Assembly: GCF_001642955.1 (NCBI RefSeq)
Contig: NZ_LWSK01000021.1
Coordinates: 1 to 64,000, forward strand
DNA: 64,000 bases
Reading direction: 5' to 3'
From: Rubripirellula obstinata
GTDB taxonomy: Bacteria; Planctomycetota; Planctomycetia; Pirellulales; Pirellulaceae
Below the pieces are notes generated by a model. It had not been told where the DNA came from, did not search any database, and saw only the letters and a list, made by a program, of their open reading frames with translations. Shown here piece by piece: positions 28,435-62,879 of the stretch. Positions within the stretch are counted from its first letter, which is position 1. Every line of letters begins with the position of its first letter. Position numbers and translations under genes: made by a program.

Positions 28435-28611
28435 AAAGTCACCTGGTATTACTTACACGAAAGGTTGTCAAAACGTTAAACTATCGCTGCGAGAACTGAT
28501 GGCAGGATGCCATGCCCCCCGAAAGCCAACAAGGTTACCCTAGTTTCCCCTGTCTCGCAAGATTGCCCTAAGTGAACCCCGTTTTTGAGCGATGCTCGCA
28601 AATTGACTGCT

Positions 28612-30567: not shown

Positions 30568-30571
30568 CAAG

Positions 30572-35100: not shown

Positions 35101-37645
35101 CACCGCGACGGTTTCAACCATTTCGACCGATCGTGATTCCGCCAACAATTCCGTTACGAATACGCTTAGTCTCGGTCCGGCCTTTGACATCGTTGTGACG
35201 AACACCGTCAATGTTGCCACCGCGTCGGCTGGCGATACCGTGATCTATTCGGTGAACTTAACGAATCAAGGTCCTGATGCTGCGACGAACGTTGTTCTTT
35301 CAAATGCTGTTCCCGCTGGCTTAACGTTTGTCAGTAGTTTTCTAAACGGGACGTCTGGCACACTTGATAACGGCATCGTTAGCTTTCCCGCTATCTCCTT
35401 GAGCAGTGGAGCTGCGAACGCTGCAACGGCAACGTTGACATTCACAGTGAATGCAGCCGCAAGCGGCGTGATCGCCAACACGGCGAGCGTCCCCGATCTC
35501 ACCAGCGCCGGCGAAACGGACATCACCAATAACTCAGCAACCGTTGCAACGACGATTGATCCTATCACCGGTTCGATCGCCGGTACCGTCTACATTGATG
35601 CAAACAACAACGGTGTTCAAGACGCCGGAGAAGTTGGCATTGCTGGAGTCACCTTGCAGTTGACCGGAACCGATTCGCTGGGCAACGCAGTCGACCAGAC
35701 GGTAACGACCAACTTGGCGGGCGACTACTTGTTCGCTCAACTGGCTGGCGGCGTCTACAGCCTTGCCGAAACTCAACCTGCCGGATTCAGTGACGGGCAA
35801 GAAGCCCTCGGTACCGGAGCGACAGCCAATGTTGGAAACGACATCTTTACGAACATCGTTTTGCCCCCGGCAGCAATGGCCACGGAGTTTGACTTCGGCG
35901 AACTGGATTCTGTCGCGATCCTTTCCGGGCATCTCTTCTGTGATTCCAATGCTAGTGGAGTTGAAGATAGCGGCGAAGCAATCTCCGGTGCGATCGTCTT
36001 TTTAGACACGAATGGAAATCGCGAATTCGACTCCGGCGAAGTGCATACAACAACCGATGGACTCGGTGATTATCAGTTCACGACTGTGCCGGGCGGCGAG
36101 ATGATTGTGGTTGCTGAAATCCCCGAAACCTGCGTGGCGATCCCGAGTAATCCTGGCGTCGTGCGGACGTTGCTAGACGCTGGGAATGTCGCGACTTCGA
36201 TCGCTGCCTATGACCGCGACTTCGATGGTGATTTAGATCTGTTGATTACGAGTGATCTGGATGGCTCACTGACGATATTCCAAAACACATTTGGCGATTT
36301 TACACTTGGTTCAACAGAAGTCCTCGGTCCTCGACTTCAGAAAATCTCTACCCGTGCAGGCTCGGAAGTTTCTTCTCCGACGATGGCGATTGTCGGCGTC
36401 GGGATGGGAGCCAACGAAGGAAATCTCCATCTGGGCAGCGACACCCTTGAAACTGTTTCGATTCCTGGTGGGCCGATTGACGTATTGATTGACAGTTTGA
36501 CGAGTGATTTTTCTACAGAAATCGTCACTGCATCGTTTCGATCATCAACGCTTCACATCGTTTCGGCAAATGGATCGTTTGCACCGCGTGAAATCCAGAC
36601 ATCGACATCGCAATTGTTGTCGATTGCCAGCGGCGATATTGATGGTGATTCCGATATTGATTTGATTGCAACAGGTTCTGGTTACCGTCCGACGGACGTA
36701 ACGATTGTTGGTGGAACCGAAGACAGCGAAATCAACATTCTGCTGAACGACGGAGAAGGGAACTTTGCCCAAGATTCGTCAGCGACTTCACTGCCGCGTG
36801 GCAAATATGTTGCTGTGGAAGCCGTCGATCTTGATTCCGATGGGAAGTCGGAAATTATTGCGGTTTCTCAGGAAGAGTTTGGCAGCACACTCTCGGTTTT
36901 CAGTTTTGAAAACAATGGATTTCAGACCGTCAGCCAGACTTCGATCGCGGCCGAGGTGACGGGAATCGCTGTTGGTGATTTGAATCGGGATTCGATTCCC
37001 GATGTTGTCGTGGTCAGCGAGTCGCAAGACTCTGTATTGTTCTTTGTCGGAGATTCAGACTTTGGTTTTCAATTGATCCAAACGGTTTTCGATGTACCGA
37101 GCCCGAGTGCGGTGACGATCGCCGATCTCGACGGCGATGGTCGCGGAGAGGTGGCGGTGACCAATCGCTTTCGACACGCCATCAGTTCCAGTGACACATC
37201 GCCATTATTACCGAGCACCGCTACGGTGCTTCGATTGCAAGTCGCGCAGCAAGAGGTATTGATTCAGCAGTCGCCTGTCACCGCCAATTTCGCCTTCCCC
37301 AGCGCAGAACTTCAGGCGAGATTCGATGTCAATTCAGACAACAGAATTTCGATGATGGATGCTCTGCAAGTCATCAACGACATTAGCCTCCCCTCTTCCA
37401 CTTCGGTGCAAGAAGCTGAGGCGGAAGCGATTTCCAATGAGAAGGTCTGGAAGGCCACTGATGTAAATCTGGACGGATCGGCGACCGCCCTCGATGCACT
37501 CATCATCATCAATCACTTGCAAAGAGAGGCGTCCACTTTTGTTCCGGCGGAACCTAGCTTCAGAGCAATTGCAGTGGATGACGATGGTGAGAATCAAAGT
37601 CACATCAAAGCGACTGACGAAGTGATCGCTGCGGGCTTGTTCTAA
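32138..37645 (+). CDS. Giant surface protein: beta-helix, SdrD-B, DUF11, FG-GAP, dockerin
   Basis: An 1,835-aa exported protein. The N-terminus has a basic stretch (RKVPPRRKL) and then LETLERRRVLAS, a variant of the planctomycete sorting signal. Residues about 80-700 are parallel beta-helix repeats of the polymorphic-membrane-protein/pectate-lyase type (TISNSTIDQNTATAAGGI, DSSTISNNQATGDGGGI). Then come SdrD B-like (GGELFLDTGP; GTVYIDANNNGVQD), DUF11 (AFTYEITVTNLGPG) and FG-GAP-like blades (DIDGDSDIDLI; DLDGDGRGEVA), and a terminal dockerin pair (DVNSDNRISMMDAL; DVNLDGSATALDAL). A GTG at about 32192 is an alternative start. A small hairpin (32057-32073) lies upstream. It is paralogous in its C-terminal half to the minus-strand protein at 22951-28434. 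Likely adhesion or surface structure. Confidence 0.85.
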   Translation: MYQLVRNRRVNDCKQHRKVPPRRKLLLETLERRRVLASYFVNLADDIDDISGAVCVPDQVAGNDNCTLRLATQLAAASAESDTITIAPGTYFVDPINGPFQLGESSDGGDITFIGEPTIRIPVVIDGQNQSGLFDLGNFESTFTFQAMTFQNGLANDSHGGGAFLSLTPVNLVLEDVIVQDNRAEVDPINGIGPLSGGAISVDGNVTISDSAFLRNSATGNAGAIRLVNQTGNQGTLSITNTQFVSNSAGSTADDVSLGGAIFVEADTSPTDLILDSVSFELNTSGGSGGAVYAIGTTTSITGSSFNENTATGTDGGAGAVYLIDNAPTPPTFLIGSSTFTNNSSIGGGGAFESVGNNGTISDSTFRFNSVTGTSIDFQNGGGAIVLLPSDTTPADPPNTVTISNSTIDQNTATAAGGIAIVNVDVGIFDSVISANQAVRFGIPVAGTLNGVAGGIGIAADNGADLFLLDSQIINNTASLDAGGIGGLDVDITIVRSTIDGNTAGDTMNIGRGGGIGLQGSSDVQNDFTLEIDSSTISNNQATGDGGGIAIVGPSFILENATISSNQSTQGSGGGIAYIGLGNPEPFIVLSTIANNTASGIGSNMIVSGTTIQVQGSIFAGGSTFPAPGFTFTSLGENIDSGTSMGFTQATDLIDTDPLLGPLQDNGGRVSTHALLTGSPAIDSSSITSDPFGGSFFEDARGITRPQDGDGDGIALADRGAFEAEQVAATLTLGGELFLDTGPGSLFGNGILDASESLFFPTVTVELFRANQNPGSDSPLATASTDNGSYRFAGLAAGNYRVFIPLSNFASGGPLFNFGPTDVTSPDPNNDVDGDDNSIALGASSGSFFGVSTEGFITLAPGTEPINDADTDPNTNTTLDFAFVPIPFPVDLAITKNLQAGDSVNVGEAFTYEITVTNLGPGTAENVFVTDILPDSLSFISLDAGGSAITSDVSGQTVTFDLGQVPVGSSTFRFDVFVDSGATGSIISTATVSTISTDRDSANNSVTNTLSLGPAFDIVVTNTVNVATASAGDTVIYSVNLTNQGPDAATNVVLSNAVPAGLTFVSSFLNGTSGTLDNGIVSFPAISLSSGAANAATATLTFTVNAAASGVIANTASVPDLTSAGETDITNNSATVATTIDPITGSIAGTVYIDANNNGVQDAGEVGIAGVTLQLTGTDSLGNAVDQTVTTNLAGDYLFAQLAGGVYSLAETQPAGFSDGQEALGTGATANVGNDIFTNIVLPPAAMATEFDFGELDSVAILSGHLFCDSNASGVEDSGEAISGAIVFLDTNGNREFDSGEVHTTTDGLGDYQFTTVPGGEMIVVAEIPETCVAIPSNPGVVRTLLDAGNVATSIAAYDRDFDGDLDLLITSDLDGSLTIFQNTFGDFTLGSTEVLGPRLQKISTRAGSEVSSPTMAIVGVGMGANEGNLHLGSDTLETVSIPGGPIDVLIDSLTSDFSTEIVTASFRSSTLHIVSANGSFAPREIQTSTSQLLSIASGDIDGDSDIDLIATGSGYRPTDVTIVGGTEDSEINILLNDGEGNFAQDSSATSLPRGKYVAVEAVDLDSDGKSEIIAVSQEEFGSTLSVFSFENNGFQTVSQTSIAAEVTGIAVGDLNRDSIPDVVVVSESQDSVLFFVGDSDFGFQLIQTVFDVPSPSAVTIADLDGDGRGEVAVTNRFRHAISSSDTSPLLPSTATVLRLQVAQQEVLIQQSPVTANFAFPSAELQARFDVNSDNRISMMDALQVINDISLPSSTSVQEAEAEAISNEKVWKATDVNLDGSATALDALIIINHLQREASTFVPAEPSFRAIAVDDDGENQSHIKATDEVIAAGLF

Positions 37646-50546: not shown

Positions 50547-52325
50547 CTAGCGAACTTTCCGCAATGCACGATCAAGTTGTTTCAATGACAAGATAAATCT
50601 GGCTGGATCAAATTCAGCTCGGCGTTTTAGATCCACCTCAAGAGATTCGCGATAGATGTACTGGTCTCGCCCCGATGGGATTGAGAGTTCGATCCCTGTG
50701 TTCTCAGTACTCATTAGTTGAGCAATGGCTTGTTTTACTTCGCCGTTAAGTTCGACTTTGTGGTCATTTAATTCGGCCGAAACCGTCTTGATCGCCCAGG
50801 CCAATTCGCGTGCCGAGTCGTATGTCAAAAGAAGTGGTGCTGGCGTGCTTGCGTACTTTTTTAAAATTAGTTGAGCTGCCTTTGCGTTGATCGGGCGGCG
50901 TTCGGCCGTTTGCACCATCTTTTCCAACTCAGCCGTCATCGAATTTGCGATCTGACTGACGCGACCAGAACTTCCAAACGGTTGGCCATAGAATGCTTGA
51001 TTAAATTGAGTTTCTAAACGGTCGTAAGCGTCGGCGTTTTCTTTTTCTGCAAGTAGAACGGCCGTGTGCATAATAACCGTGAACCATTCATGGCTGCGGG
51101 GGCGTCCGGGCGGACCATCGAAGCCGCGTCGTTGGCGTAGGCTTTTGGACTCAAGTTCGTGATGGCAGGCGGCACAATCGTAGAGTGCGTAGTCGGCCCA
51201 TCCGCCGTCGTTGGCCGCTTCTTGAAAGAGCGACAAGTATTGAATCTGTGACTGCAATGCACCAACAAGTGTCTTGCGAGTATTCCAGAATATATCTTTT
51301 GGTGATACTTGTTTCGTCAGACCTGGGTAGTTGATTTGAAAGTACTGGTCTCGTTGAGCGTACTTTTCGAGCGACGCGTGAAGTTGTTTGGGAGATTGCC
51401 AGTGCTGAGGCATTTGCTGAGAGAATTCGTGCATCTCGATCGACGGCAGTGGCGGGTGGCCGGCCGCATACATTTCGTGATTCACAAACATTCCTTTGCC
51501 GCGATTGCCAATATGACAATCGGCACAAAGACTTGCTTGACGGCTTGTATTGACCAAATCCCGCATCCCATCCGCCTGCTTCTCGGATGGCTTTTTCAAA
51601 CGCCAAGTTTTCGGCTTGGTATGGTTGGCAACCCAATCCGTCTGCTCGCCTGACTGGTGGCATCGCATGCAATCGATGCCAAGCTGAGCTGACTTACCCA
51701 ACCCGGCAAAATCAAATGCTTTATCGCTGCTACCAATCTCGTAGCCACCATGACACGTCAAGCATTGGTCGCGAAATTTCGCGTAGCCTGCTGGCTGCTT
51801 CACTGCACCTTCGCCGAAAAGCTTGTCGCACATTCGTCGGCTCAGCACATTGCTCATTCCAACCCATTGCTCTGGAAAATCGTCGAACGCTAATTCACCA
51901 ATTTCGACTCGGTAGTTCGCCTTCACAAGTTTCTGCAACAACTTGCTGCGATGTTCTTTTGTTTCTTTTAGCATCTTCTTCAATTGCTGCCTGCTCTCGT
52001 CAGCCGAAAATGGCTCCACGCGACGGCGGGCAATCGTATGTTTGTCTTGCGTCAGCCAACGCTCCATTTCGTCACGGCGACTGAACTCACCAAACACATC
52101 TTTCTTTCCGCTGATCATCGAGCCGATGGATTCGGCAAGATGACATTCGACGCATTCGCTGACCTCTGTGTTCCGGCTCCAGTTCATATAGACCAAGTCC
52201 GAAAGCCGATCATCCCACGACGGCGGCTCAAAAGTATCCTGCGCATTCGTGTCGGATATCACGACGACAATCGCCCAAAAGGTGACGAAAGCCAGGATCG
52301 ATGCGGTGCTTGTTCTCTGATTCAT
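50547..52325 (-). CDS. Exported pentahaem cytochrome, c554-like
   Basis: A 592-aa protein with a signal peptide (ILAFVTFWAIVVVIS). Five CxxCH motifs occur: CVECH, CLTCH, CMRCH, CADCH, CAACH. NHEMYAAGHPPL matches the NHD.IAAGHP.L motif in the other two c554-like proteins of this region. The C-terminal 200 residues are helical without haem motifs. ATG at 52325 is preferred because it starts the signal peptide; the frame is open to 52379 inside the neighbouring gene. It lies ten bases downstream of the other minus-strand cytochrome, so the two form an operon divergent from the b-cytochrome operon. The electron partner is not visible. Confidence 0.85.
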   Translation of the reverse strand: MNQRTSTASILAFVTFWAIVVVISDTNAQDTFEPPSWDDRLSDLVYMNWSRNTEVSECVECHLAESIGSMISGKKDVFGEFSRRDEMERWLTQDKHTIARRRVEPFSADESRQQLKKMLKETKEHRSKLLQKLVKANYRVEIGELAFDDFPEQWVGMSNVLSRRMCDKLFGEGAVKQPAGYAKFRDQCLTCHGGYEIGSSDKAFDFAGLGKSAQLGIDCMRCHQSGEQTDWVANHTKPKTWRLKKPSEKQADGMRDLVNTSRQASLCADCHIGNRGKGMFVNHEMYAAGHPPLPSIEMHEFSQQMPQHWQSPKQLHASLEKYAQRDQYFQINYPGLTKQVSPKDIFWNTRKTLVGALQSQIQYLSLFQEAANDGGWADYALYDCAACHHELESKSLRQRRGFDGPPGRPRSHEWFTVIMHTAVLLAEKENADAYDRLETQFNQAFYGQPFGSSGRVSQIANSMTAELEKMVQTAERRPINAKAAQLILKKYASTPAPLLLTYDSARELAWAIKTVSAELNDHKVELNGEVKQAIAQLMSTENTGIELSIPSGRDQYIYRESLEVDLKRRAEFDPARFILSLKQLDRALRKVR

Positions 52326-52335
52326 GATTGCGATT

Positions 52336-54225
52336 CTAATCATTCTTGCTGCCCTGGGTCTGTTTCTTTGCAGGCACACCGAAACGTTTTTCTTGTTCCT
52401 CGAATAAGTCTTCTTCCTCTAAAACAGGCTTGGAAGGTTGATTGTTTCGCTTGTCTTTCTTTTTGCGATCAAGTTCTTCCTGCCGCTTTTCCAGCAGCTC
52501 CTTCAGTCGTTCTTGCAGCTCGGCATGATCTTGTTTATTCAGTTCTCTTAGCTCCTCGATCAAGGCACCAAGCTCGTATTCTAACTGAGCGGTCGCTTGT
52601 TGATCTGCCGCGAACGAAGACTCCAAGTCAACGGAGACTTTGCCAAGCCACCGAGCCAGATCGACGGCAGTCATTTGAGCTTGCTCGCGGCTCATTCGAT
52701 TGATTCCGCTATTCGTTACCGCAAATCGGCTGATCTCTTTTTTGGCAGGATAACCCAGCCCCCTTTGAAGTCTTTTGGCAGAATCCTGAAGCGGTCCGCT
52801 CCAGCCTCCCGGCCAGCTTTCGCGTGACGCCACCGCCGCCAGATACCATTGAACCGCGCCTTCCCATGTCTCGAATGTTGACTGTTTTCCAGCGGAGCTT
52901 GCAACCAGTCTTCCCAGGTCATCACTTCGGAAACCAAGTCGGGCATTGACGCCCGACGGACCATTCAACCACCGATCGAGAGAGATTCTCGCATTTTCGG
53001 CTGCCAAGCCAACTTCGTTCGCGTTCGGAATCGAGTTTGCCTCCATCAGGTGCTTGACATAGTCAAGCGATTCGATCAGCTCGATGTCTTCGTTTCCTGC
53101 GGTGCCTGATTCGCGTCTCGATTCAATGACCCAGCGAATTCCTGAATCATTCCACTTGGAATAGATCGCTTGAGCTTTTCGATTGCCAGCGTTCGGCGTT
53201 CGGGCGTTTTCAAGTCCGAGGTCGTGGTGACAGGATGCACAATCGTACGAGGCTAGTTCTGGCCAAATACTCACGGAATGTGATTGCTCGGCTCGCGACT
53301 TTAGCAAGGTAAGCGATGCGTCCGTCGCGGCGACTTGTCCAGCGATCCAAAGCTGAGCTTCGTAGAACGTCTTGTCGCTGGCTTCCGCGTCCCGCCAATG
53401 TTTGGGCAACCATGCGTGGTAGGTCGCCAACTCGTATCGAAGCGGCGGATGCCCCGCTGCGATGATGTCATGGTTCATGTCACGGTCGTCGTCTCCGACA
53501 TGACACGACGCGCACATGCGGGCACGGACATAGAGGTCTTGGTTGTTTACAAAACCTTCGGCAGCAACCGGCGACCAAGCGGCGGTGAAGTGAGTTCCTA
53601 ACCAGTGTTCGCTTGGTCCGTGGCAGGCTGCGCAACCAACTCCCTCACGCGTGAAGCTATTCGCCGAATCGTTTCGGTCAAGCTCATGGGTCCGACATGA
53701 TTCGCCGCATGATTCCTGACTGCCATGGCTGTGTTCTTTGAATCCGTTTGCCTGGCGAGAGAAGAAAGTCTGCAAGGATGTGAATGAACGATCGGGCGAC
53801 GTCACACGGGGCTCGTCGAATCGTTTGGTGGTGTTATGGCATGCCAAGCAGTTGTCATATCCTTTTTGGTCGGTGACGTTTCCTTGCTTGTCGATGATCG
53901 CGAGTCCAAGCATCATGCGTTGGCTCTTGTCGTTGCAGATCGTACGCCAGCTTTGCGCGTGCGGATCGTTTTCATTCCACAAAGCGTATTCGTTTCCGCG
54001 CCGAGCAGTCGGTTGAGCAATGCCCGGCCGTGGGCCACCATGACAGCTAGCGGCAGCACACGACTGTGCAGATTCAATTCGGAGATCCTGCCGCTTCAAT
54101 GGAGAGACGGATTCCGTAAGCGACAGGAAACCTTGCCCCAAGCAGGACGATGCGGCGTAGGACGATGCGATGATGCATAGGGACGCTAGCCCGAAAGCAG
54201 ATCGAAGACGGAATTGATGAAGCAT
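52336..54225 (-). CDS. Exported pentahaem cytochrome with CX4CH motif and coiled-coil tail
   Basis: A 629-aa protein with a signal peptide (FGLASLCIIASSYAASSC). Haem motifs are one CX4CH (CAAASCH) near the N-terminus and four CxxCH (CLACH, CAACH, CASCH, CASCH). NDPHAQSW and NHDIIAAGHPPLRYEL recur in the 57092-58558 protein, so these are paralogues of the c554 type. The last 110 residues form a highly charged predicted coiled coil (ELRELNKQDHAELQERLKE), unusual for a cytochrome, and could bind a partner. The ATG at 54225 gives a clean signal. It is divergent from the b-cytochrome gene across 353 bases that hold a long inverted repeat. Confidence 0.87.
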   Translation of the reverse strand: MLHQFRLRSAFGLASLCIIASSYAASSCLGQGFLSLTESVSPLKRQDLRIESAQSCAAASCHGGPRPGIAQPTARRGNEYALWNENDPHAQSWRTICNDKSQRMMLGLAIIDKQGNVTDQKGYDNCLACHNTTKRFDEPRVTSPDRSFTSLQTFFSRQANGFKEHSHGSQESCGESCRTHELDRNDSANSFTREGVGCAACHGPSEHWLGTHFTAAWSPVAAEGFVNNQDLYVRARMCASCHVGDDDRDMNHDIIAAGHPPLRYELATYHAWLPKHWRDAEASDKTFYEAQLWIAGQVAATDASLTLLKSRAEQSHSVSIWPELASYDCASCHHDLGLENARTPNAGNRKAQAIYSKWNDSGIRWVIESRRESGTAGNEDIELIESLDYVKHLMEANSIPNANEVGLAAENARISLDRWLNGPSGVNARLGFRSDDLGRLVASSAGKQSTFETWEGAVQWYLAAVASRESWPGGWSGPLQDSAKRLQRGLGYPAKKEISRFAVTNSGINRMSREQAQMTAVDLARWLGKVSVDLESSFAADQQATAQLEYELGALIEELRELNKQDHAELQERLKELLEKRQEELDRKKKDKRNNQPSKPVLEEEDLFEEQEKRFGVPAKKQTQGSKND

Positions 54226-54578
54226 GTGGGTTCAGTTCAGACCAATCGCAAAAAAACGAGACCGGGAATGCAAAGGGGGTTAGTCGTTCGAGTCAACTTG
54301 GTTTTCGAGCAGGCCGTAGCGAGCCAAAGCGAGTTACGGCGATTCAACTCATTGCCGTAACTCGCTTTGGCTCCCTACGGAGCCCTATCCGAAATTTAAG
54401 TTGTTACGGGCTACTATCCCCCCATGCTAGTTGTAAATCCGCATGCATTTGGACTCATGAGCAAGAAATCTTGCCCCAAAACGCAGAATTGAGCTCCTAC
54501 AATCGCTGCAATCGTGTGCTGACCACGTCCAGATGTTTGACGACGCAGCGCCGCGCAACTACAAATACCCCCCGGCGG
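54226..54578. other. Divergent intergenic region between cytochrome operons
   Basis: These 353 bases must hold the promoters of both cytochrome operons. The clearest feature is an inverted repeat at 54314-54380. If the upstream TTG at 54471 were the start of the b-cytochrome gene, the region would shorten to 245 bases. No other structure was recognised. Confidence 0.6.
54314..54380. repeat. 27-bp inverted repeat (hairpin) between divergent cytochrome operons
   Basis: Arms 54314-54340 and 54354-54380 are reverse complements at 26 of 27 positions, with a 13-nt loop. The stem contains CCAAAGCGAGTTACGG and its complement. It could be a palindromic mobile-type repeat, a regulatory hairpin or a bidirectional attenuator. 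It is not related in sequence to the palindrome at 2078-2198. Confidence 0.75.
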
Positions 54579-55583
54579 ATGTGTTCTTCACCCCTTTTCG
54601 ACCGGAAGTTTCCTGTGCTTCTTTCTCGCTCTCAATCGCGTCTGCATTTGATGATGGGGATACCAGCGGCAGTCTTTGTCGTGGTTTGCTTGTACTACTA
54701 CGTTACTCAAAGTGTTCGCGTGGGTGCTTGGCAGGGTGGGGGCAGTGGGCCTGGATTGATTTGCGGTATTGCAGCCGGATCCGTGATCGTTTTTGAAATG
54801 CTGCTTTGGCCCCGCAAACTTTTGCGTCGGCTGCGTCTGATTCCAGCAAAGTACTGGCTCGCCGCTCATATTTGGTTTGGTCTTGCCTCGCTACCGCTTG
54901 CGATCGCGCACTGTGGTTTTCATCTCGGTGGCTGGTTACCGGCCACCTTCATGATCTTTTTTGTCGCCACGATTTTCAGCGGGATCTATGGGGTGGCAGT
55001 TCAGAATTTATTGCCTCGCTGGCTATTGCGGAATCTTCCGTCCGAGACGATTTACAGCCAGATTGATTATGTGTCAGACCAGGCTGTCAGAGATGCGGAG
55101 CGTTTACTTGTTGGAGCATGTGGACGCCGCGCAAACTCTGATATTTCCATCGAAGACGAACTGAGCGACCAATTGGCGATCCGTGAGACCGTCGTCGTCG
55201 GTGCCGTTCGGCAGGCGGGAAAAACGAGTGGGCGCACCCTCGAGACACGACAGATGAATCGTGCCAAAGAAGATTCCGTCACGCTATGGAATGCGCTCGA
55301 TGAAATTCGGCCCTTCCTGCTTCATGGCAAGCGCGAACTGACACCGGTCACGGATACAAATGAAGCATCGGCATGGTTCCGCCGCCTGAGAACGGCGTGC
55401 AGTGAAGAGGGACAAGAGATTATCGATATCCTGATGAGTCTCTGCAATCAGCGGCGACAATTTGATATTCAAGCAAGAGTCCATCACTGGTTGCACACAT
55501 GGATTCCGATTCATATCGCATTATCGATTGCCGTGACGGGGTTGTTGGCTGCACATGTTTGGACCGCTTTGAAATACTGGTAA
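54579..55583 (+). CDS. Membrane protein with two H-X13-H pairs, likely di-haem b cytochrome
   Basis: A 334-aa membrane protein with about five hydrophobic segments. Segment 3 contains His97 and His111 (HIWFGLASLPLAIAH) and segment 5 contains His312 and His326 (HIALSIAVTGLLAAH), each spaced H-X13-H. Two helices each with two histidines at this spacing would bind two b haems, one near each face, as in ferric-reductase-like and NarI/cyt b561-like electron carriers. A soluble loop of about 140 residues separates segments 4 and 5. The start at 54579 (ATG) is one choice; a TTG at 54471 is also open. It ends three bases before the decahaem gene. It is the obvious membrane link of the operon. Confidence 0.75.
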   Translation: MCSSPLFDRKFPVLLSRSQSRLHLMMGIPAAVFVVVCLYYYVTQSVRVGAWQGGGSGPGLICGIAAGSVIVFEMLLWPRKLLRRLRLIPAKYWLAAHIWFGLASLPLAIAHCGFHLGGWLPATFMIFFVATIFSGIYGVAVQNLLPRWLLRNLPSETIYSQIDYVSDQAVRDAERLLVGACGRRANSDISIEDELSDQLAIRETVVVGAVRQAGKTSGRTLETRQMNRAKEDSVTLWNALDEIRPFLLHGKRELTPVTDTNEASAWFRRLRTACSEEGQEIIDILMSLCNQRRQFDIQARVHHWLHTWIPIHIALSIAVTGLLAAHVWTALKYW

Positions 55584-55586
55584 TTG

Positions 55587-57095
55587 ATGTCGCGCGAGAC
55601 TGGAAAAGAACGATCGCAACGAATCGAAATTGACTATTTCCGCAAGCGGACTGGGCTTGATCGGTTTCGGTCGATGTGCATTTACTCGGCAATCTCGTTG
55701 ACCGGTGCCTACGTTGCGTTTGCAATTTTTGCTGGAAAACCATCGTCACAAATCAGCACGGGGCCGCTCGCACGGGTTCATGCTTCGTTCGAAAACGATT
55801 GTCGGCAATGTCATACGAACTTTGAGCCAATTGATTCTGATGCAAACCAAATGAACCTGTCTTTTGTGGGAATTCAGTCCTCGGAGTCGATCGCTCATTT
55901 GGAGTCGGCATGTAAGAAATGTCACGCTGTGGGCGATCATTACCGCACAAACATGACCAATATCGCTGCGATGAGCGACCAAAACTGCTCAACATGTCAC
56001 CACGATCATCAAGGCCGCGATCATCTTCTCAACCAAGTTGCTTCGGCAAAGTGTACGTCGTGTCACGAAGGTCTTGACGCATCTTGCAAGGCGGAACCGA
56101 GCATCGCCAAGGCGATCTCAGGATTCTCTGAAGAGACTCATGGTGATTTCAAATTCATAAATAGTCGCGAACGTGGTGTCATCAAATTTGACCATCACCA
56201 ACACATGCAACCTGGACAAGTGGATTCGGGAACACGCGGAGCATTCACGATTGCGATGCTCGACGCGTCCATGCGGCAGCGCTATCAACAGCCGGGACAA
56301 AGCGACACGGATTCCGTTCAGCTTAATTGTCAAAGTTGCCATGAAATGGCGGGCAATCCAGCTTCCTCCAATTCGATGATTGCAGACGGTGAATTGGGAC
56401 GCTACATGAAACCTGTTTCGTTCGAAAAACACTGCGCCGCTTGCCATTCCGTCAATCCAGGCATCGCGACCGAACAAACAATGCCGATTCCCCATGGGCA
56501 ACCTTGGAACAAGACAGAGCTTTTCCTTGCCGCAACCCTTGTGGGTGCTCAATCAACGGGTGCGATCCGAGATCCGAACGACGATTCGCAGACAACTCCT
56601 CAGCTTGGCGAAGGATTTGGAAAGAAAACACCTACCAACGAAACAATCGCGATTGACGTTTCTACTTTGGCAGGCTTACGAAAAGCCACCGAGGCCCAGT
56701 GTTTGAAATGCCATGACGCCGATTCGATCACCGACGACGCAATTCGCGGCGCAGTCGATGGAACTGCACCACCGATGATTCCGCCACGTTGGCTGAAGCA
56801 CGGATTGTACGATCACGCAGCTCACCGACAAATCGATTGTCGCTATTGCCACCAAGACGCATACCCTGGATCAGAATCCAAGCCGTCGCCGCCAAAGGAT
56901 CATGAGAAGATGATGATCGCGGGAATCGAAAGTTGCGTTGGCTGTCATCGAAACGAAGATGAGGCCTTGTCTGCAGCGATGCTAAAGTCGGAACAAAGCG
57001 GAGTCTTTGGCGGGATGCCGACTTGGGGTTCCGACGATTGCACGCTTTGCCATCGTTATCACACGGATGTAACGTCGTTGGGAGCGAAGCGTTGA
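55587..57095 (+). CDS. Membrane-anchored decahaem cytochrome c
   Basis: A 502-aa protein with one N-terminal membrane helix (CIYSAISLTGAYVAFAIFAG) that is probably an uncleaved anchor. Ten CxxCH motifs follow: CRQCH, CKKCH, CSTCH, CTSCH, CQSCH, CAACH, CLKCH, CRYCH, CVGCH, CTLCH. This matches the role of a NapC/CymA-like wire that takes electrons from a membrane b cytochrome, but the haem number is much larger. The ATG at 55587 is preferred over a TTG directly before it. It follows the b-type gene by three bases and overlaps the next gene by four, so one operon is indicated. Confidence 0.88.
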   Translation: MSRETGKERSQRIEIDYFRKRTGLDRFRSMCIYSAISLTGAYVAFAIFAGKPSSQISTGPLARVHASFENDCRQCHTNFEPIDSDANQMNLSFVGIQSSESIAHLESACKKCHAVGDHYRTNMTNIAAMSDQNCSTCHHDHQGRDHLLNQVASAKCTSCHEGLDASCKAEPSIAKAISGFSEETHGDFKFINSRERGVIKFDHHQHMQPGQVDSGTRGAFTIAMLDASMRQRYQQPGQSDTDSVQLNCQSCHEMAGNPASSNSMIADGELGRYMKPVSFEKHCAACHSVNPGIATEQTMPIPHGQPWNKTELFLAATLVGAQSTGAIRDPNDDSQTTPQLGEGFGKKTPTNETIAIDVSTLAGLRKATEAQCLKCHDADSITDDAIRGAVDGTAPPMIPPRWLKHGLYDHAAHRQIDCRYCHQDAYPGSESKPSPPKDHEKMMIAGIESCVGCHRNEDEALSAAMLKSEQSGVFGGMPTWGSDDCTLCHRYHTDVTSLGAKR

Positions 57096-58558
57096 GTGGT
57101 TTGCTGAGCACCCGTCGTGGATTCTGCTGCCGCGTTTCGATATCGCTGGCCTTTTTCCTCGCTGCCCCCGCTGTGTTGCCTGTCGTAGCTCAGCAGATTC
57201 AGCGGCATATCGAAACAGAGTCACTGGATCTCAGCCCCCGCTTTCTTGGCTCTGATTCGTGTGCAACTTCGACATGCCACGGCAACGTTGTTGGACAGGG
57301 GCCGTTGTGGAATCATTCGCTTTCGGTTTATGCAGCAAACGATCCGCACGCTACGGCAGGAAGGATTTTGTCACGCGAAGTAAGCCCTCTCTCTGAATCG
57401 ATCGTGGTTTTGCTGGATCCCAACGCCAAGACCTCAACGGAGGCCTACACCCAAGTGCTGCAAAAACATTGCATCAGTTGCCATGGAACCGTGACCCCCG
57501 ATCAGTGTGATTCAAGCAATCCCCTCAAACCATCAGTGCTCTACGAAGGAGTCTCATGCGAAGCCTGCCACGGTGGGGCGAGTCAATGGATCGATGATCA
57601 CTTAAACGAAAGTTGGATCGGTCCCTCGCGGTTCCTTGCGGCGACGGGAATGCGAGATACCGAATCGATCGTTGGCAGAGCAAAGAACTGCGTCCGGTGT
57701 CACGTTGGGTCACGCAGTGAAGATGGCTTGGTTCGCGACATGAATCATGACCTGATTGCTGCGGGACATCCGGCGCTCCGGTTCGACCTCCTTATCTACA
57801 ATGAAAACTTGCCTCATCACTGGAGCAGCGACAGTGAGGTTGAGGAAAATTTTTCCGCATCGGCGATTCGTCTGAGAAAGGTTTCCCGGGCGACCAATTT
57901 GTCAGCAGCGGCAGCTTTGTCGTCAGCCCGAGCATCAGATCACCTTCGCGACGTGTCTATACCGTGGCCGGAGCTATCCGATTACGATTGTTTCGCCTGT
58001 CATCAGTCCCTAACGATGTCTCGTTATGACGTACCGCTGATGAATCAAGTCAAAACGATGCTGCGTGTCAGTGACGGACTACCGATTTGGAATACATGGC
58101 ACAGCACCGATCAGTTGAACTTGCGAGATTCAATTTCCTATCTCGAAATTCTATCACCTCATCGCAGCGATCCCAGAAAAGTCGCGAGCATCGGAAATCG
58201 TATTGCAGCTCGCTATCAAAAACTTGCCAGCAAGATTGCAACAGAGGCGGCACCTGATACCAAAACCGAACTTAACCGGTTGCTCGCTTTGTTGCAGAAA
58301 AACGAGTTGCAGGATTGGCACGCGGCCGCAGTCAACCTTTTAACGTTGGACGCGATCATTCGCGATTTGCCGGATCAGCAACGAACCGTACTCGCAGCCG
58401 ATGTCGCTCAGCTTGAATCCATGCTCCGTTTTGATTCAGGCGACCGATCTTCCAAACCGCCAAAACATTCTCCCGGTGGATTTGATCCCCAAGAGTATCG
58501 CGCCCGCGTGATTGACATTCTCACCAGCAGACTCAACCCAGCGACAAAAGCTCCATGA
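57092..58558 (+). CDS. Exported pentahaem cytochrome, c554-like with CX4CH motif
   Basis: A 488-aa protein with a signal peptide (SISLAFFLAAPAVLPVVAQ). Haem motifs are one CX4CH (CATSTCH) and four CxxCH (CISCH, CEACH, CVRCH, CFACH). NDPHATAG and NHDLIAAGHPALRFDL mark it as a paralogue of the minus-strand protein at 52336-54225. The TTG at 57092 overlaps the upstream TGA (TTGA) and has GGAG at a good distance, so I use it as start; the frame is open back to 57023 inside the previous gene. It overlaps the NuoE-NuoF gene by ATGA, supporting one coupled operon. Confidence 0.85.
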   Translation: MSGLLSTRRGFCCRVSISLAFFLAAPAVLPVVAQQIQRHIETESLDLSPRFLGSDSCATSTCHGNVVGQGPLWNHSLSVYAANDPHATAGRILSREVSPLSESIVVLLDPNAKTSTEAYTQVLQKHCISCHGTVTPDQCDSSNPLKPSVLYEGVSCEACHGGASQWIDDHLNESWIGPSRFLAATGMRDTESIVGRAKNCVRCHVGSRSEDGLVRDMNHDLIAAGHPALRFDLLIYNENLPHHWSSDSEVEENFSASAIRLRKVSRATNLSAAAALSSARASDHLRDVSIPWPELSDYDCFACHQSLTMSRYDVPLMNQVKTMLRVSDGLPIWNTWHSTDQLNLRDSISYLEILSPHRSDPRKVASIGNRIAARYQKLASKIATEAAPDTKTELNRLLALLQKNELQDWHAAAVNLLTLDAIIRDLPDQQRTVLAADVAQLESMLRFDSGDRSSKPPKHSPGGFDPQEYRARVIDILTSRLNPATKAP

Positions 58559-60357
58559 TCATTCCAGCGCTCTACGAACGACAAAAAAAGAGAGGCGGAT
58601 ATCTCACCAGTGCCGATATGCATAACGTTGCCGATGAGTTGGGCGTGCCGCTGCACCGGGTCAATTCGCTGGTGACTTTCTTTCCCCATTTCCGCACTGA
58701 CCCACCGCCAAAAGTCACCGTGCATGTTTGTCGCGACATGAGTTGTCATCTCCATGGCGGAGTTGAACTCAAGGACAAGCTGACCCAATGGGCGACCCAG
58801 ACACACCAGCAGAACGTTGAGGTTTGCGGAGTCTCGTGTCTAGGACGCTGCGACAGAGCGGTTGCCGCGATGGTCAATGACAACCTGGTTGCGGCGACTG
58901 ACTTGGACCGGCTTAAAAGAGTCGTCGATGATTTGATGGATGATCGCACACCTAGCTATGACTCAGACGCGGAACTTGTCACGCCCAAAGTTGGCAAATG
59001 GGACATGGACGTTTACGGTGGTGAGGGCCGATACGATCAAGTGAAAAACTTTCTCACTTCGGGAAGCGATCCAGATCAAGTTCTCGCCGCGCTTGAAAAT
59101 GCGGGACTGCTTGGAATGGGCGGTGCCGGAGGACGCGCCTACCTGAAGTGGGGCGACGTGATGCGGGCCGAGGGCACGTCGGGCGAAAAGTTTATCGTCT
59201 GCAATGCCGACGAGAGCGAACCGGGAACTTTCAAAGACCGTGAAATCTTGCTGGCGGCTCCCCATCTGACCATCGAGGGCATGATTGTCGCGGCACTGGT
59301 TGTTGGAGCGACACGAGGATGGATCTATGTTCGCCACGAGTACCCAGAGCAAATCGAAAAATGCCGCGAGGAGATTCGTCGAGCGGTCGGATTACGTGCG
59401 TTAGGAAAGAACATCTTTGGATCAAGTCGTTCGTTTGAGCTAGATGTCTTCCCCAGTCCCGGCGGCTATATCTGTGGCGAACAGACGGCACTAATTGAAG
59501 CGATGGAAGATAAGCGTGCCGAACCACGCAATCGGCCTCCCGAATTGATGACCAATGGACTCTACAACCAACCCACGTTGCTTTCTAACGTCGAAACCTT
59601 TGCTTGGGTGCCAGCGATTCTGAAGGACGGTGGCGACTGGTTTTCTGCTCAAGGTCAGAACACCGGAACCTTCACCGCAGGGTCAAGCGAGCGAATGAAG
59701 GGAAAGCGTTTGTTCTCGATCAGCGGTGATTTGGTCAAACCAGGCGTCTATGAAGTTCCCACCGGAATCACCTTAGGTGAGTTAATCGACAACCATTGCG
59801 GCGGAATGAAAGACGGAAAGGCGATCGTGGCGGTCGCGATGAGCGGTCCCTCAGGCGGACTGTTACCAGGGAAAATTCCCGTAAAGTATCTCAGTCGCCG
59901 GTTCGTTGAAAAGAATGTCCCGGAAAGCATCACTGAAATTGACATCCGTGATCTACCGCTCGACATCAACGTTTCGCGGGCGGTCGGCTACATGCTGGGG
60001 GCCGGTATTGTTGTGTACGGCGAAGGATGCGACGTACTCGCCGAAGCGGTTGCCAATAGCCGCTTTTACAAAAATGAATCGTGCGGCAAATGCGTTCCCT
60101 GCCGCATTGGTTCACAGAAGGTGACCGAGATGGGGGAACGGTTGTTAGCGAATGAAGTAACGAAAGAAGAATTTGCGACCTTCGAACCGGTCGCGTTGCA
60201 ACTAAGTGAAGTGATGCAAGCGACCAGCATCTGTGGACTCGGCCAAGTCGCGAGTAATCCGATGCAGACATTCCTGAAGTACTTTCCGGACCTAGCCCAG
60301 AAGGCTTGCGTTGGATCCAACAAACAATCCGATTCTGACGGAGAGTCAAAACGATGA
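58555..60357 (+). CDS. NuoE-NuoF fusion, NAD(P)H-oxidising diaphorase subunit
   Basis: A 600-aa cytoplasmic protein with two respiratory complex I subunits in one chain. Residues about 1-130 are a thioredoxin-like [2Fe-2S] NuoE domain with Cys59, Cys64, Cys95 and Cys99 (CRDMSC; SCLGRC). Residues about 165-590 are NuoF: GMGGAGGRAYLKW and CNADESEPGTFKDR for FMN/NADH, GGYICGEQTAL, and the 4Fe-4S site SCGKCVPCRIG (Cys510, 513, 516) with Cys560 (TSICGLGQ). There is no signal peptide. This module accepts electrons from NAD(P)H, or reduces NAD(P)+ in reverse. No NuoA/H/J-N membrane subunits or hydrogenase genes are near; the partner is instead the Fe-S/CNB protein that overlaps it by ATGA. Confidence 0.93.
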   Translation: MIIPALYERQKKRGGYLTSADMHNVADELGVPLHRVNSLVTFFPHFRTDPPPKVTVHVCRDMSCHLHGGVELKDKLTQWATQTHQQNVEVCGVSCLGRCDRAVAAMVNDNLVAATDLDRLKRVVDDLMDDRTPSYDSDAELVTPKVGKWDMDVYGGEGRYDQVKNFLTSGSDPDQVLAALENAGLLGMGGAGGRAYLKWGDVMRAEGTSGEKFIVCNADESEPGTFKDREILLAAPHLTIEGMIVAALVVGATRGWIYVRHEYPEQIEKCREEIRRAVGLRALGKNIFGSSRSFELDVFPSPGGYICGEQTALIEAMEDKRAEPRNRPPELMTNGLYNQPTLLSNVETFAWVPAILKDGGDWFSAQGQNTGTFTAGSSERMKGKRLFSISGDLVKPGVYEVPTGITLGELIDNHCGGMKDGKAIVAVAMSGPSGGLLPGKIPVKYLSRRFVEKNVPESITEIDIRDLPLDINVSRAVGYMLGAGIVVYGEGCDVLAEAVANSRFYKNESCGKCVPCRIGSQKVTEMGERLLANEVTKEEFATFEPVALQLSEVMQATSICGLGQVASNPMQTFLKYFPDLAQKACVGSNKQSDSDGESKR

Positions 60358-62879
60358 GTAACGTTCCGAGTTCGAGTTCTGAGCCTTCATCAAGCAAGGT
60401 CGATTTCAACGTCGATGGTCTCGTCGCGTCTCAGCGAGAAGATGAAGGACTGTTCGCACGCGACATTGACGGTCAACTGATACGTGTTGAAAAAGCAACA
60501 GCGACAGAGCTTGAGGAGAATGTGACGCTGACCATTGATGGTCGTGAAGTCACCGTCAAGAAGGCGCAACCGACACGTGACAGCCAGGGAAACATTTTGC
60601 GAGGCGAGGATGGCCTGCCGATCCCGCGACCGACCACGATCTACGATGCCGCGAGCGAAGCCTTCGTGCGTAAACCGGGTGACCCGCATCCGATCGCAAC
60701 ACTTTGTCACAAAGAGCATTTGCCACCAGTGGGCGTTTGCCGCGTTTGCGTCGTCGAAGCGACAGAGATGACGCGGCGGGGACCGAGAAGCCGATTGGTC
60801 CCTTCGTGCGTCCAACGCGTCACCAATGACATGGTTGTCAGCACACTTAGAAGCGAAGCAGATCCAGCAGCCGCAGCCCGAGTAAAAACGGCAAGCCAAA
60901 CCGTTATCGAACTCCTGATGGCAGATCATTTGCCAGAAAATCAGACTGATGCACCAGGCAATGAACTTGCCGCGATCGCCAAGTCGATGGGTGTGGCTCA
61001 GTCGCGGTTCTCACCGCCACCGATTTCACGCGGTCAAGATGACAGCAGCAAGATGATTCTCGTCGATCATGACCAGTGCATTCTGTGCGGACGTTGTCAG
61101 CGTGGATGCAATTGGGTGAAAGAGAACAAAGTCATCGGTCGCGGCGAGAAGGGGTACGCGACAAGGATTTCATTCGATCTCGATGACCCAATGGGCCAAA
61201 GCTCATGCGTGTCGTGCGGCGAGTGCGCGGTGAGTTGTCCCACGGGGGCTTTACAGTTCCAGCCATCGTTTATCGATACACAACTTAAGCGTGTTCGCGA
61301 CGACATGATCGCTGGCAAGAAAGATGGTGACATTGTCGGTGCAGACGAACTGATTAAGTACCCGCTTTTCTCAGGAATCCCCTACAAGTTCCTGCAGTTC
61401 AACGGTGCTGCAGTGGTCCGCCGAGTTCTCGCAAAAGATGACGTGCTATGCCGCGAAGGTGAGTACGGGTCCACGGCGTTCATCATCTTAAAAGGAGAGT
61501 TCGAGATTTTCCTAAGCTCGACGCGTGGCGCGGTCCGGAACAAAAGTGTTGGCGGATTACGAGGGCTTTTTGGTGGACTGAAAACAGTAGTCGAGAAGGT
61601 CGGCGGAAAGGCAAGATTGGCGGACGTTGGTGCCGCAAGCCTGAGCGAGGACCAGCGAATTTTGCGAAACGAAGAAGACGTCATCCTCGGCGAAATGACT
61701 TGCTTGAATCGCTATCCGCGTAGTGCAACAGTCGTTTCGACAGGCGAGGCCGAAGTCTTAGAAATTAAACGCAACGTTCTACATATGCTGCAACGAAATG
61801 CGGTCAGCCGAGACATACTTGATCGGGTTTATCGTGAACGTTCCTTGCGAGGACAACTCTCCGGTCTTCCAATCTTCAACCCGCTTGATGATGCATCGAA
61901 AGACAAAGCTGCTGAGTTTTTGAAAGACAAGGCGGATTTAATAACCGTCGACCCTGGACAGATCATTTTTCGCCAGGGTGAAAACGCAGACAACTATTAC
62001 GTCAATCGCCTCGGTTTCGTAAAAGTGACACAGGCTTACGGAAGAAACGAACGTGTACTGAATTACCTTGGCCCAGGCAATGGATTCGGTGAAATTGGTT
62101 TGCTTAGTTCAATGGGAAATCAGTTCGGATCTCCCGTTGGCACCGACTCAGTTGCTGGAGTGCGAACTGCAACATGCACCGCGCTCGATCATGTTGAATT
62201 GATTCGAATCCGTGGCGAGGATTTTCGTGAATTGCTGGAAACGTTTCCGGATCTTCGGAATGCACTGGCTACGAAAGCGAAAGAAATCTTGAGCCGTGAC
62301 GAGGAAGCTCGCGGGCGACTACAAGCCGTCGAAGCGGACGAGTATCTCGATCAAGGATTATACCTTGCGCAGAGCCTTCTGGTTTTAGATTTGGAGCGTT
62401 GTACTCGATGTGACGAGTGTACGAAAGCTTGCGCCGACACTCACGACGGCGTCACCCGGCTTGTTCGTGACGGCCTACGGTTTGACAAGTTCTTGGTGGC
62501 CAGCAGTTGCCGCAGTTGCATGGACCCGTACTGTCTTGTCGGATGCCCCGTCGATGCGATTCACCGAAATGGCGATTCACTTGAAATTGAGATCGAAGAC
62601 TACTGCATCGGCTGTGGTTTATGTGCCGAGAATTGCCCCTACGGCAATATCAACATGCACGGATTCCCAAAACAAGAAGTGAATGAAAGCGGAAAACTTG
62701 TTACGGTCTATGAAGAATTGGACGGAGGGAAACTACCGGTGGTTCAGCAGCGTGCGACGACATGCGATTTGTGCCGTAGCGTTGATGGCAAACCGAGTTG
62801 CGTGTACGCATGCCCTCACGAAGCTGCGTTTCGCATGACGGGTGAACAACTGTTGGAAATGACAAAACGCACGAATTAG
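60354..62879 (+). CDS. Iron-sulfur electron-transfer protein with two embedded cyclic-nucleotide-binding domains
   Basis: An 841-aa cytoplasmic protein. Domain order: a NuoG/HoxU-like [2Fe-2S] site (Cys118, Cys129, Cys132, Cys152); the region that in NuoG holds HxxxCxxCxxxxxC, here DHLPENQ without cysteines; two [4Fe-4S] sites (from Cys242, CILCGRCQRGC, and from Cys285, CVSCGECAVSC); CNB domain 1 (about 340-480) with Glu447 and Arg456 (GEMTCLNRYPRSATV); CNB domain 2 (about 500-650) with Glu580 and Arg604, separated by an insert; and a DmsB/HybA-like unit from Cys683 with four 4Fe-4S motifs (CTRCDECTKAC, CRSCMDPYC, CIGCGLCAENC, CDLCRSVDGKPSC). Both CNB domains keep the key residues. It overlaps the NuoE-NuoF gene (ATGA) and is the likely gated electron hub. 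Confidence 0.9.
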   Translation: MSNVPSSSSEPSSSKVDFNVDGLVASQREDEGLFARDIDGQLIRVEKATATELEENVTLTIDGREVTVKKAQPTRDSQGNILRGEDGLPIPRPTTIYDAASEAFVRKPGDPHPIATLCHKEHLPPVGVCRVCVVEATEMTRRGPRSRLVPSCVQRVTNDMVVSTLRSEADPAAAARVKTASQTVIELLMADHLPENQTDAPGNELAAIAKSMGVAQSRFSPPPISRGQDDSSKMILVDHDQCILCGRCQRGCNWVKENKVIGRGEKGYATRISFDLDDPMGQSSCVSCGECAVSCPTGALQFQPSFIDTQLKRVRDDMIAGKKDGDIVGADELIKYPLFSGIPYKFLQFNGAAVVRRVLAKDDVLCREGEYGSTAFIILKGEFEIFLSSTRGAVRNKSVGGLRGLFGGLKTVVEKVGGKARLADVGAASLSEDQRILRNEEDVILGEMTCLNRYPRSATVVSTGEAEVLEIKRNVLHMLQRNAVSRDILDRVYRERSLRGQLSGLPIFNPLDDASKDKAAEFLKDKADLITVDPGQIIFRQGENADNYYVNRLGFVKVTQAYGRNERVLNYLGPGNGFGEIGLLSSMGNQFGSPVGTDSVAGVRTATCTALDHVELIRIRGEDFRELLETFPDLRNALATKAKEILSRDEEARGRLQAVEADEYLDQGLYLAQSLLVLDLERCTRCDECTKACADTHDGVTRLVRDGLRFDKFLVASSCRSCMDPYCLVGCPVDAIHRNGDSLEIEIEDYCIGCGLCAENCPYGNINMHGFPKQEVNESGKLVTVYEELDGGKLPVVQQRATTCDLCRSVDGKPSCVYACPHEAAFRMTGEQLLEMTKRTN

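Follow-up and report, generated by a model that had tools for sequence, protein, structure and literature searches.

Cyclic-nucleotide-binding domains within a multi-cluster iron-sulfur chain of Rubripirellula obstinata: a candidate gated electron conduit

What purpose could two cyclic-nucleotide-binding (CNB) domains serve in the middle of a protein that otherwise consists of iron-sulfur electron carriers? This question is raised by an open reading frame (ORF) on contig NZ_LWSK01000021.1 of the planctomycete Rubripirellula obstinata (assembly GCF_001642955.1), of which we analysed positions 1 to 64,000 of the forward strand; this whole stretch of 64,000 nucleotides is called the window. The explanation we favour, to which as a whole we assign a probability of roughly 57%, is that the encoded 841-residue chain belongs to an electron conduit that leads from NADH to the periplasm and is controlled by a cyclic nucleotide. 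Assembly into a single complex, the outward direction of flow and the gating itself are what we infer from the domains and the surrounding genes. The chain is divided as follows:

60354 to 62879, plus strand: 841-residue subunit with NuoG-type iron-sulfur head, tandem CNB domains and DmsB-type four-cluster ferredoxin domain; ATG start (Pfam, cysteine motifs, orthologues)
60705 to 60809, plus strand: 2Fe-2S site, C118/C129/C132/C152 (each cysteine in 84 or 85 of 86 homologues, the remainder being gaps)
61077 to 61238, plus strand: two 4Fe-4S sites, C242/245/248/252 and C285/288/291/295 (85 of 86 homologues, the remainder a gap)
61368 to 61793, plus strand: first CNB domain (CNB1), about residues 339-480, with a variable insert (Pfam, alignment)
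61686 to 61730, plus strand: phosphate-binding cassette of CNB1, residues 445-459, with E447 and R456 (conservation in 86 homologues)
61866 to 62318, plus strand: second CNB domain (CNB2), about residues 505-655 (Pfam, sequence matches and VIA-align comparison of model residues from about 497 to 658)
62085 to 62174, plus strand: phosphate-binding cassette of CNB2 with an insertion, residues 578-607, with E580 and R604 (conservation in 86 homologues)
62379 to 62828, plus strand: DmsB/HycB-type domain with four 4Fe-4S motifs (Pfam, NCBIfam, cysteine motifs)

For comparison, 84,980 species genomes were scanned, in which 360 stretches encode a relative of any architecture (E ≤ 1e-3); the best 80 of these 360 were examined. 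The conservation alignment holds 86 distinct homologues after removal of three duplicates, with pairwise identities from 0.37 to 0.98 (median 0.48), and includes three contig-end partials (L093, L146, L111), each of which lacks some motif columns. In this alignment, every column of the 16 ferredoxin cysteines (C683/686/689/693, C719/722/727/731, C751/754/757/761 and C804/807/816/820) is conserved in 85 or 86 of the 86 sequences. The cNMP_binding model PF00027 matches the chain with E = 3.2e-25 and 88.3 bits against a cut-off of 27.5, in three stretches, and many Fer4 models match within residues 235-303 and 676-824; the Fer2_4 match at residues 114-165 is weak (E = 0.0023) and below its cut-off. 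A reading of the DNA made earlier from the sequence alone had described this ORF as a NuoG-like 2Fe-2S and two 4Fe-4S sites, two CNB domains and four DmsB-type motifs, all of which are confirmed, and the search for the same domain order elsewhere that it called for recovered relatives from two phyla. Its statement that the CNB domains sit in the middle of the electron wire holds for the linear sequence; the AlphaFold model of the chain, built on a 9-row alignment with a mean predicted local distance difference test score (pLDDT) of 57.7, is too poor to place them in space.

The strongest argument for a ligand comes from the phosphate-binding cassettes. The sequence-only reading had called both intact and had named Glu447/Arg456 and Glu580/Arg604 as their key residues; the numbering is correct, few columns of either domain are better conserved, and both cassettes are retained, with the refinement that Glu and Arg are nine positions apart in CNB1 and 24 in CNB2. 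E447 is found in 84 of the 86 homologues, R456 in all 86, E580 in 85 (one Asp) and R604 in 85 (one His). Glu and Arg are kept jointly in 84/86 for CNB1 and likewise in 84/86 for CNB2, and all four residues in 82/86. Ranked by entropy, the CNB1 Glu is 12th and the Arg 7th of 176 columns, and their CNB2 counterparts are 8th and 9th of 160, in an alignment with a median column entropy near 2 bits. The canonical spacing of nine in CNB1 is universal (86/86), whereas CNB2 has a spacing of 9 in 13 and of 10 in three of the 86 sequences; inserts of variable length occur in both domains.

The short relatives without a NuoG head provide an internal control. In the set of 20, all with CNB domains (four of them, L029, L030, L032 and L034, are near-copies; L036, without CNB columns, was left out), the CNB1 Glu and Arg are kept in every member, while the CNB2 motif is lost in nine and a single residue in two more (L020, L035). 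Since the fold thus tolerates the loss of the cassette, the Glu and Arg retained in the full-length proteins point to a ligand. Position G372 of CNB1 is Gly in 78/86, and the corresponding position 545 of CNB2, an equivalence that is our own reading, is Ala in 61 and Gly in 10 of 86; the Gly of the beta2-beta3 loop is described as having co-evolved with the cassette Arg in a 2007 study, which also states that FNR- and CooA-type cassettes differ and that not every CNB fold binds cyclic nucleotides (Genome Biol. 2007, PMC2246266). A nucleoside-binding type is ruled out: such domains are marked by a cassette Glu (PMC10959531), and this residue is absent from both cassettes (T/A/S/C at 449, G/A/S at 582), the Arg being kept. 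Decay of the two domains is likewise ruled out by the conservation of the cassettes across the 86 homologues.

By sequence, CNB1 is nearest to cGMP-dependent protein kinases, in entries that we take to be apicomplexan, and CNB2 to regulatory subunits of PKA. In VIA-align, CNB2 of the model superposes on the cAMP- or cGMP-bound domains of Clr, GlxR, PKG and TAX-4 with Z about 17 and a root-mean-square deviation (rmsd) of about 2.5-2.8 over about 140 residues. The data support an assignment of the cassettes, which are held under strong selection, to the cyclic-phosphate-binding type. CNB1 very probably binds a cyclic nucleotide, and for CNB1, together with CNB2 in this clade, such binding is a strong inference from the conserved residues. 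Apart from the cassette residues, CNB1 carries two near-invariant cysteines, C366 (86/86; 61449-61451) and, inside the cassette, C450 (84/86; 61701-61703), a pair that could possibly act as a thiol switch.

Where would electrons enter and leave such a chain? The genes immediately upstream give the following picture:

58555 to 60357, plus strand: NuoE-NuoF fusion (NADH/FMN, 2Fe-2S, 4Fe-4S), its end overlapping the start at 60354 by four bases
57023 to 58558, plus strand: cytochrome c with four CX2CH and one CX4CH, presumably periplasmic (motif count)
55584 to 57095, plus strand: decaheme cytochrome c with ten CXXCH and, by eye, an N-terminal hydrophobic segment (motif count)
54471 to 55583, plus strand: membrane protein, predicted diheme b, with two H-x13-H pairs (His pattern, structure model)
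52336 to 54225, minus strand: divergent multiheme cytochrome c with four CX2CH and one CX4CH (motif count)
50547 to 52379, minus strand: divergent multiheme cytochrome c with five CXXCH (motif count)

This arrangement is conserved. NuoEF lies immediately upstream in 70 of the 76 loci with at least 300 nt of upstream sequence by script, and in 73 when L083, L106 and L125, in which an over-long ORF start had masked it, are read by eye; it was not seen upstream of L111 (638 nt available), L159 (434 nt) and L114 (9.9 kb). Of the 39 loci flanked by 6.5 kb or more on each side, 35 have the b protein, 33 the decaheme (which is split in a further two, L123 and L157) and 31 the tetra/pentaheme cytochrome, and four (L114, L125, L131, L139) have neither b protein nor decaheme. 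The four b-protein histidines, H98/H112 and H313/H327, are invariant in 38/38 sequences and all lie in helices of an all-helical model (pLDDT 88). The b protein of the window itself has no Pfam match; DUF4405 matches weakly in 20 of the 38 (best E = 5.2e-05) and Ferric_reduct in four (best E = 0.0067). The top VIA-align row is STEAP1 (Z 10.2, rmsd 4.5, 146 aligned), the next an unrelated channel at Z 10.0, and Foldseek returned nothing at E ≤ 0.001 (best E = 0.25). Since an unrelated channel scores almost as well as STEAP1, the diheme b call leans on the His pattern.

Among solved chains, the NuoEF fusion is closest to 7e5z_B (E = 3.6e-83), a tungsten formate dehydrogenase beta subunit. NuoD (PF00346) has no match at E ≤ 0.001 in the window genome, which is 99.99% complete, and 11 of 14 control genomes were positive; NuoEF and the NuoG head are therefore not parts of complex I. 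In addition, the His-Cys3 (N5) site of the NuoG-type head keeps its His and has lost all three Cys in the window protein; among the 86 homologues this stretch has no Cys in 58 and two in 28, with His192 in 72. A leftover of complex I is ruled out by these two results. Neither the chain nor any of the seven scanned neighbours has a molybdopterin domain in its Pfam matches. Our data place the chain in a gene set for NADH-linked electron transfer; given the conserved genes for a predicted diheme b protein and multiheme cytochromes c, a role in a transmembrane conduit is more probable than one as a soluble diaphorase. The sequence-only reading, whose suggestion of electron flow gated directly by cAMP/cGMP is supported in part, mentions neither this gene set nor the exchange of input domains described below.

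The mechanism we propose would make the chain the cytoplasmic relay of a membrane complex. Electrons would pass from NADH via the NuoE-NuoF fusion and the NuoG-type clusters to the four-cluster ferredoxin domain, and from there through the predicted diheme b protein to cytochromes c on the outer face, the decaheme and the smaller ones. The two CNB domains in tandem, a pair which links the clusters of the NADH input to the output ferredoxin, may serve as a conformational switch operated by a cyclic nucleotide. Electron transfer has a limit of about 14 Å. Since the CNB pair is free of cofactors and cannot pass electrons, the two iron-sulfur modules must touch, either directly or after a movement. 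CNB domains are hinge switches. In the most economical mechanism, binding of the nucleotide would change the orientation of the ferredoxin domain towards the clusters on the NADH side and bring the two modules within reach of electron transfer or out of it; the conduit would then open only when the nucleotide is made by the cell. Electrons that leave the negative-inside cell through diheme b dissipate membrane potential, and an unregulated conduit from NADH to the periplasm would therefore be costly, a plausible reason for such control.

The full architecture is shared well beyond the window. The best 80 matches are distributed over Planctomycetota (Rubripirellula, Rhodopirellula, Roseiconus, Neorhodopirellula, Tautonia and many metagenome-assembled genomes, MAGs), Acidobacteriota (Bryobacterales, Terriglobia, Acidobacteriales) and one MAG labelled Actinobacteria (L159), and, save for the three contig-end cuts, extend over the whole order, NuoG-type head and final ferredoxin motif included. 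Relatives with the same domain order and open frames rule out a chance fusion, a frameshift or an assembly artefact. Of 294 Planctomycetota sampled, 73 have a match at E ≤ 1e-30. Many of these matches cover just the head or just the CNB-ferredoxin part; the full order is present in a single frame in at least nine genomes (G000, G274, G058, G044, G061, G130, G003, G056, G171). For Acidobacteriota, nine of 199 match at E ≤ 1e-60, three of those over the full order.

Besides, the CNB-CNB-ferredoxin part, b protein and decaheme form a core that many planctomycetes have without a NuoG head; the window genome itself has such a core at a second locus (L075). This short CNB-ferredoxin, b protein and decaheme locus covers positions 5811-10612 of L075 (G000:C199); its CNB1 cassette is intact, CNB2 is decayed, C366 and C450 are both replaced, and it falls in a distant group of the core tree. 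On that tree of 48 rows, the NuoG-headed form needs two changes and was thus gained or lost few times. A different head is found on a plasmid of Sphingobium herbicidovorans (L186), where a pyridine-nucleotide oxidoreductase (Pyr_redox_3, E = 2.5e-20) precedes two CNB domains with intact cassettes and a ferredoxin with 16 Cys, followed downstream by the genes of a b561-like protein, in which H-x13-H pairs are present, and of a 10-CXXCH protein. Twelve Sphingobium plasmid records and one of Nonomuraea gave matches, of which one Sphingobium record was analysed; the b protein as query found no match at E ≤ 1e-5 in the plasmid collection, though its counterpart in gene order adjoins the Sphingobium relative. 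The 10-CXXCH protein (L186, 9096-10895, pMSHV) is FHA-like at its N terminus (FHA E = 0.0054, Yop-YscD_cpl E = 3.6e-06), which suggests phospho-dependent docking. FHA domains are also present in three of ten scanned relatives (L026, L031, L076).

The CNB-ferredoxin core is therefore used with several input domains, either a NuoEF/NuoG head or an FAD/NAD(P)H oxidoreductase. As the CNB pair lies between an NAD(P)H-side domain and the ferredoxin in both input types, this is the best comparative argument for a regulation of the transfer. Going one step further, we see an even chance that the conduit is the electron-transfer counterpart of a cyclic-nucleotide-gated channel, its conductance from NADH to extracytoplasmic cytochromes being switched by nucleotide binding to a tandem CNB gate set between a swappable NAD(P)H input and a conserved core of ferredoxin, diheme b and decaheme; if true, this would be a widespread and so far undescribed class of second-messenger effectors in Planctomycetota, Acidobacteriota and some Alphaproteobacteria.

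A gate needs a ligand, and the window contains a possible source together with a second possible effector:

28585 to 30567, plus strand: class III nucleotide cyclase, possible source of the ligand (PF00211, E = 9.2e-20; GAF, E = 0.0044, below cut-off)
30524 to 31951, plus strand: fusion of CNB and Ser/Thr kinase, overlapping the cyclase gene, possible co-effector outside the conduit (PF00069, E = 2.4e-52; PF00027, E = 2.9e-17)

The window genome encodes two PF00211 cyclases, one of them this one; by eye, both keep what we take to be the metal-binding Asp and the active-site Asn/Arg. PF00211 is present in all genomes with the full architecture that were checked, nine of nine in Planctomycetota and ten of ten in Acidobacteriota. 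Among 22 genomes of the genus, an orthologue of the window cyclase (E ≤ 1e-100) occurs in 6/6 with the electron-transfer gene set and in 0/16 without it, a pattern that concerns one accessory gene, and PF00211 matches at E ≤ 1e-15 follow with 6/6 versus 5/16 (p = 0.006). Inheritance of the gene set within one clade of the genus is ruled out, as in the rpoB tree it is scattered, with at least three changes on supported branches and G000 sister to the negative G520; this tree covers four of the six positive genomes (no rpoB match in G515 and G516), with G511 likewise unmatched and G509 excluded as too short.

A number of observations weigh against the gated conduit and have to be set against the evidence above. 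The model is too poor over the iron-sulfur parts to give cluster spacing and contact, and the tandem CNB superposes on PKA regulatory subunits with an rmsd of 8-14 over about 236 residues, only single domains fitting. The CNB2 cassette carries an insertion in most members, a spacing of 9 or 10 being kept in 16/86. The gene set is patchy within the genus (6/22 genomes). As to the ligand, the substrate-selecting positions of the window cyclase look unusual when compared with the known motifs, so that its product is uncertain. PF00211 is common in the phylum anyway (208/294). Its excess in Planctomycetota with the full architecture is weak (9/9 against 199/285; p = 0.042, one-sided), and when every PF00211 match is counted, the genus shows 6/6 against 12/16 (p = 0.25). 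The cyclase follows the gene set in three of three phylogenetically independent pairs, a number at which significance is unreachable (sign test p = 0.25), and with a looser cut-off (E ≤ 1e-80) two to three of three agree. G502, a genome without the gene set, gives a partial match to the cyclase (E = 4.9e-81); among the positive genomes, the copy of G514 is split over two contigs and the match of G504 contains one in-frame TAA. Relatives of the cyclase (E from 9.4e-72 to 2.9e-90) also occur beyond the genus, in G523, G529, G530 and G535, which do not have the gene set, so the enzyme acts on other targets too, for instance the adjoining kinase.

The rival explanations have to be judged on the same evidence, and their odds overlap. 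A permanently bound nucleotide could be a structural or assembly element that lends stability to the chain or to its docking at the membrane subunit, without any switching of electron flow. The joint conservation of both cassettes with the DmsB-type domain in the full-length set would fit such a role, and the variable-length inserts in both CNB domains could be docking surfaces. Distant relatives, however, lose the CNB2 motif and keep the rest of the core, so that in these the CNB2 nucleotide is not needed for assembly; moreover, the allostery-linked Gly is kept in CNB1 and the FHA domains of some relatives point to regulation. Taken together, we regard a purely structural nucleotide as unlikely.

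A second alternative concerns the direction of flow. Extracytoplasmic cytochromes might feed electrons inward and reduce NAD+, which is compatible with control by a cyclic nucleotide, since a reverse flow can be gated too. NuoEF-type modules run both ways in hydrogenases and formate dehydrogenases, and among solved structures both NuoEF and the NuoG head are most closely related to subunits of the tungsten formate dehydrogenase. Flow from c heme to NAD+ is, however, uphill in redox terms, and none of the scanned neighbours was recognised as a known periplasmic donor enzyme, which makes an inward conduit doubtful.

Rather improbable, in our view, is a use of the conduit as a sensor, in which the redox state of the clusters or of the CNB1 cysteines alters CNB affinity, and release or sequestration of the nucleotide reports electron pressure to the CNB-kinase pathway. 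The near-invariance of C366 and C450 in the full-length set would allow for redox activity, and the kinase that overlaps the cyclase gene is encoded 30 kb away. Yet C450 is Ala in L012 and L013 (C366 kept), both cysteines are lost in the second copy of the genome, the cyclase orthologue of G504 lies about 1.4 Mb from the gene set, and a membrane complex that buffers cyclic nucleotides would give a weak signal. That the CNB domains are degenerate, ligand-free fillers is hardly credible: some CNB folds bind no cyclic nucleotide (PMC2246266), but the four cassette residues persist in 82/86 at a median identity of 48%, and CNB2 decay is visible elsewhere in the family.

Returning to the gated conduit, how does it compare to known systems? 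The Hmc/Tmc and Cbc conduits combine a cytoplasmic iron-sulfur subunit, a membrane b subunit and periplasmic multiheme cytochromes c, as in the window set; they are not known to contain CNB domains or a diaphorase head. The NAD-linked tungsten formate dehydrogenase (7vw6/7e5z), which provides the best solved matches of both chains, shares the NuoG-type head and the fused NuoE-NuoF, whereas the window chain has CNB-CNB-DmsB instead of a Mo/W catalytic domain and has lost the N5 cysteines. The best NCBIfam matches of the head are HoxU and the [FeFe]-hydrogenase A6 group, and the window chain has no H-cluster domain. With the DmsB, HycB and FDH3-beta ferredoxins it shares 16 Cys in four motifs and similarity over residues 676-839; unlike these, the domain is fused behind a tandem CNB, and no Mo enzyme is among the operon genes scanned. 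NOX, ferric reductases and STEAP resemble the b protein in their paired His with H-x13-H spacing and the proposed conduit in NAD(P)H-driven outward electron flow, but the sequence link is weak and unrelated folds score almost like STEAP1. NuoG of respiratory complex I differs by its N5 cysteines, and a NuoD match is missing from the genome.

The nearest precedent is the Bact_Pyrredox family, in which a tandem CNB with canonical cassette follows an NAD(P)H-type oxidoreductase (Genome Biol. 2007, PMC2246266). The window protein has the tandem CNB in common with it, and L186 has the same architecture plus a DmsB-type ferredoxin; in contrast, the window protein has a NuoG-type head with separate NuoE-NuoF in place of the N-terminal pyridine nucleotide-disulphide oxidoreductase. 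In the sections of the paper used here, the family is described as a domain architecture, with no mention of ferredoxin, b or c subunits or of a function (PMC2246266). A search of open-licence PubMed Central papers, which is weak evidence of absence, found no published description of the complex. A precedent thus exists at the domain level, and the cyclic-nucleotide-gated electron conduit as a functional class would be new if shown.

Bacterial cyclic nucleotides are known to act mainly through transcription factors, kinases and channels. If the proposed conduit is real, a second messenger acting directly on electron flow would add an effector class, provide a fast post-translational control point over the disposal of cellular NADH, and give class III cyclases a testable role in phyla where their targets are mostly unknown. 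A ligand-gated protein wire would, in addition, be a natural electronic component for bioelectronics.

Two further features of these loci deserve mention. The cyclase and CNB-kinase (window 28585-31951) form a PKA-like pair in one bacterial operon, with giant dockerin/SdrD/FG-GAP surface proteins on both sides (22951-28434 and 32138-37645). Finally, long multiheme proteins with LVIVD repeats are encoded near the module in three phyla (L155, 14930-18706; L051, 6124-9786; L186, 12842-15176).

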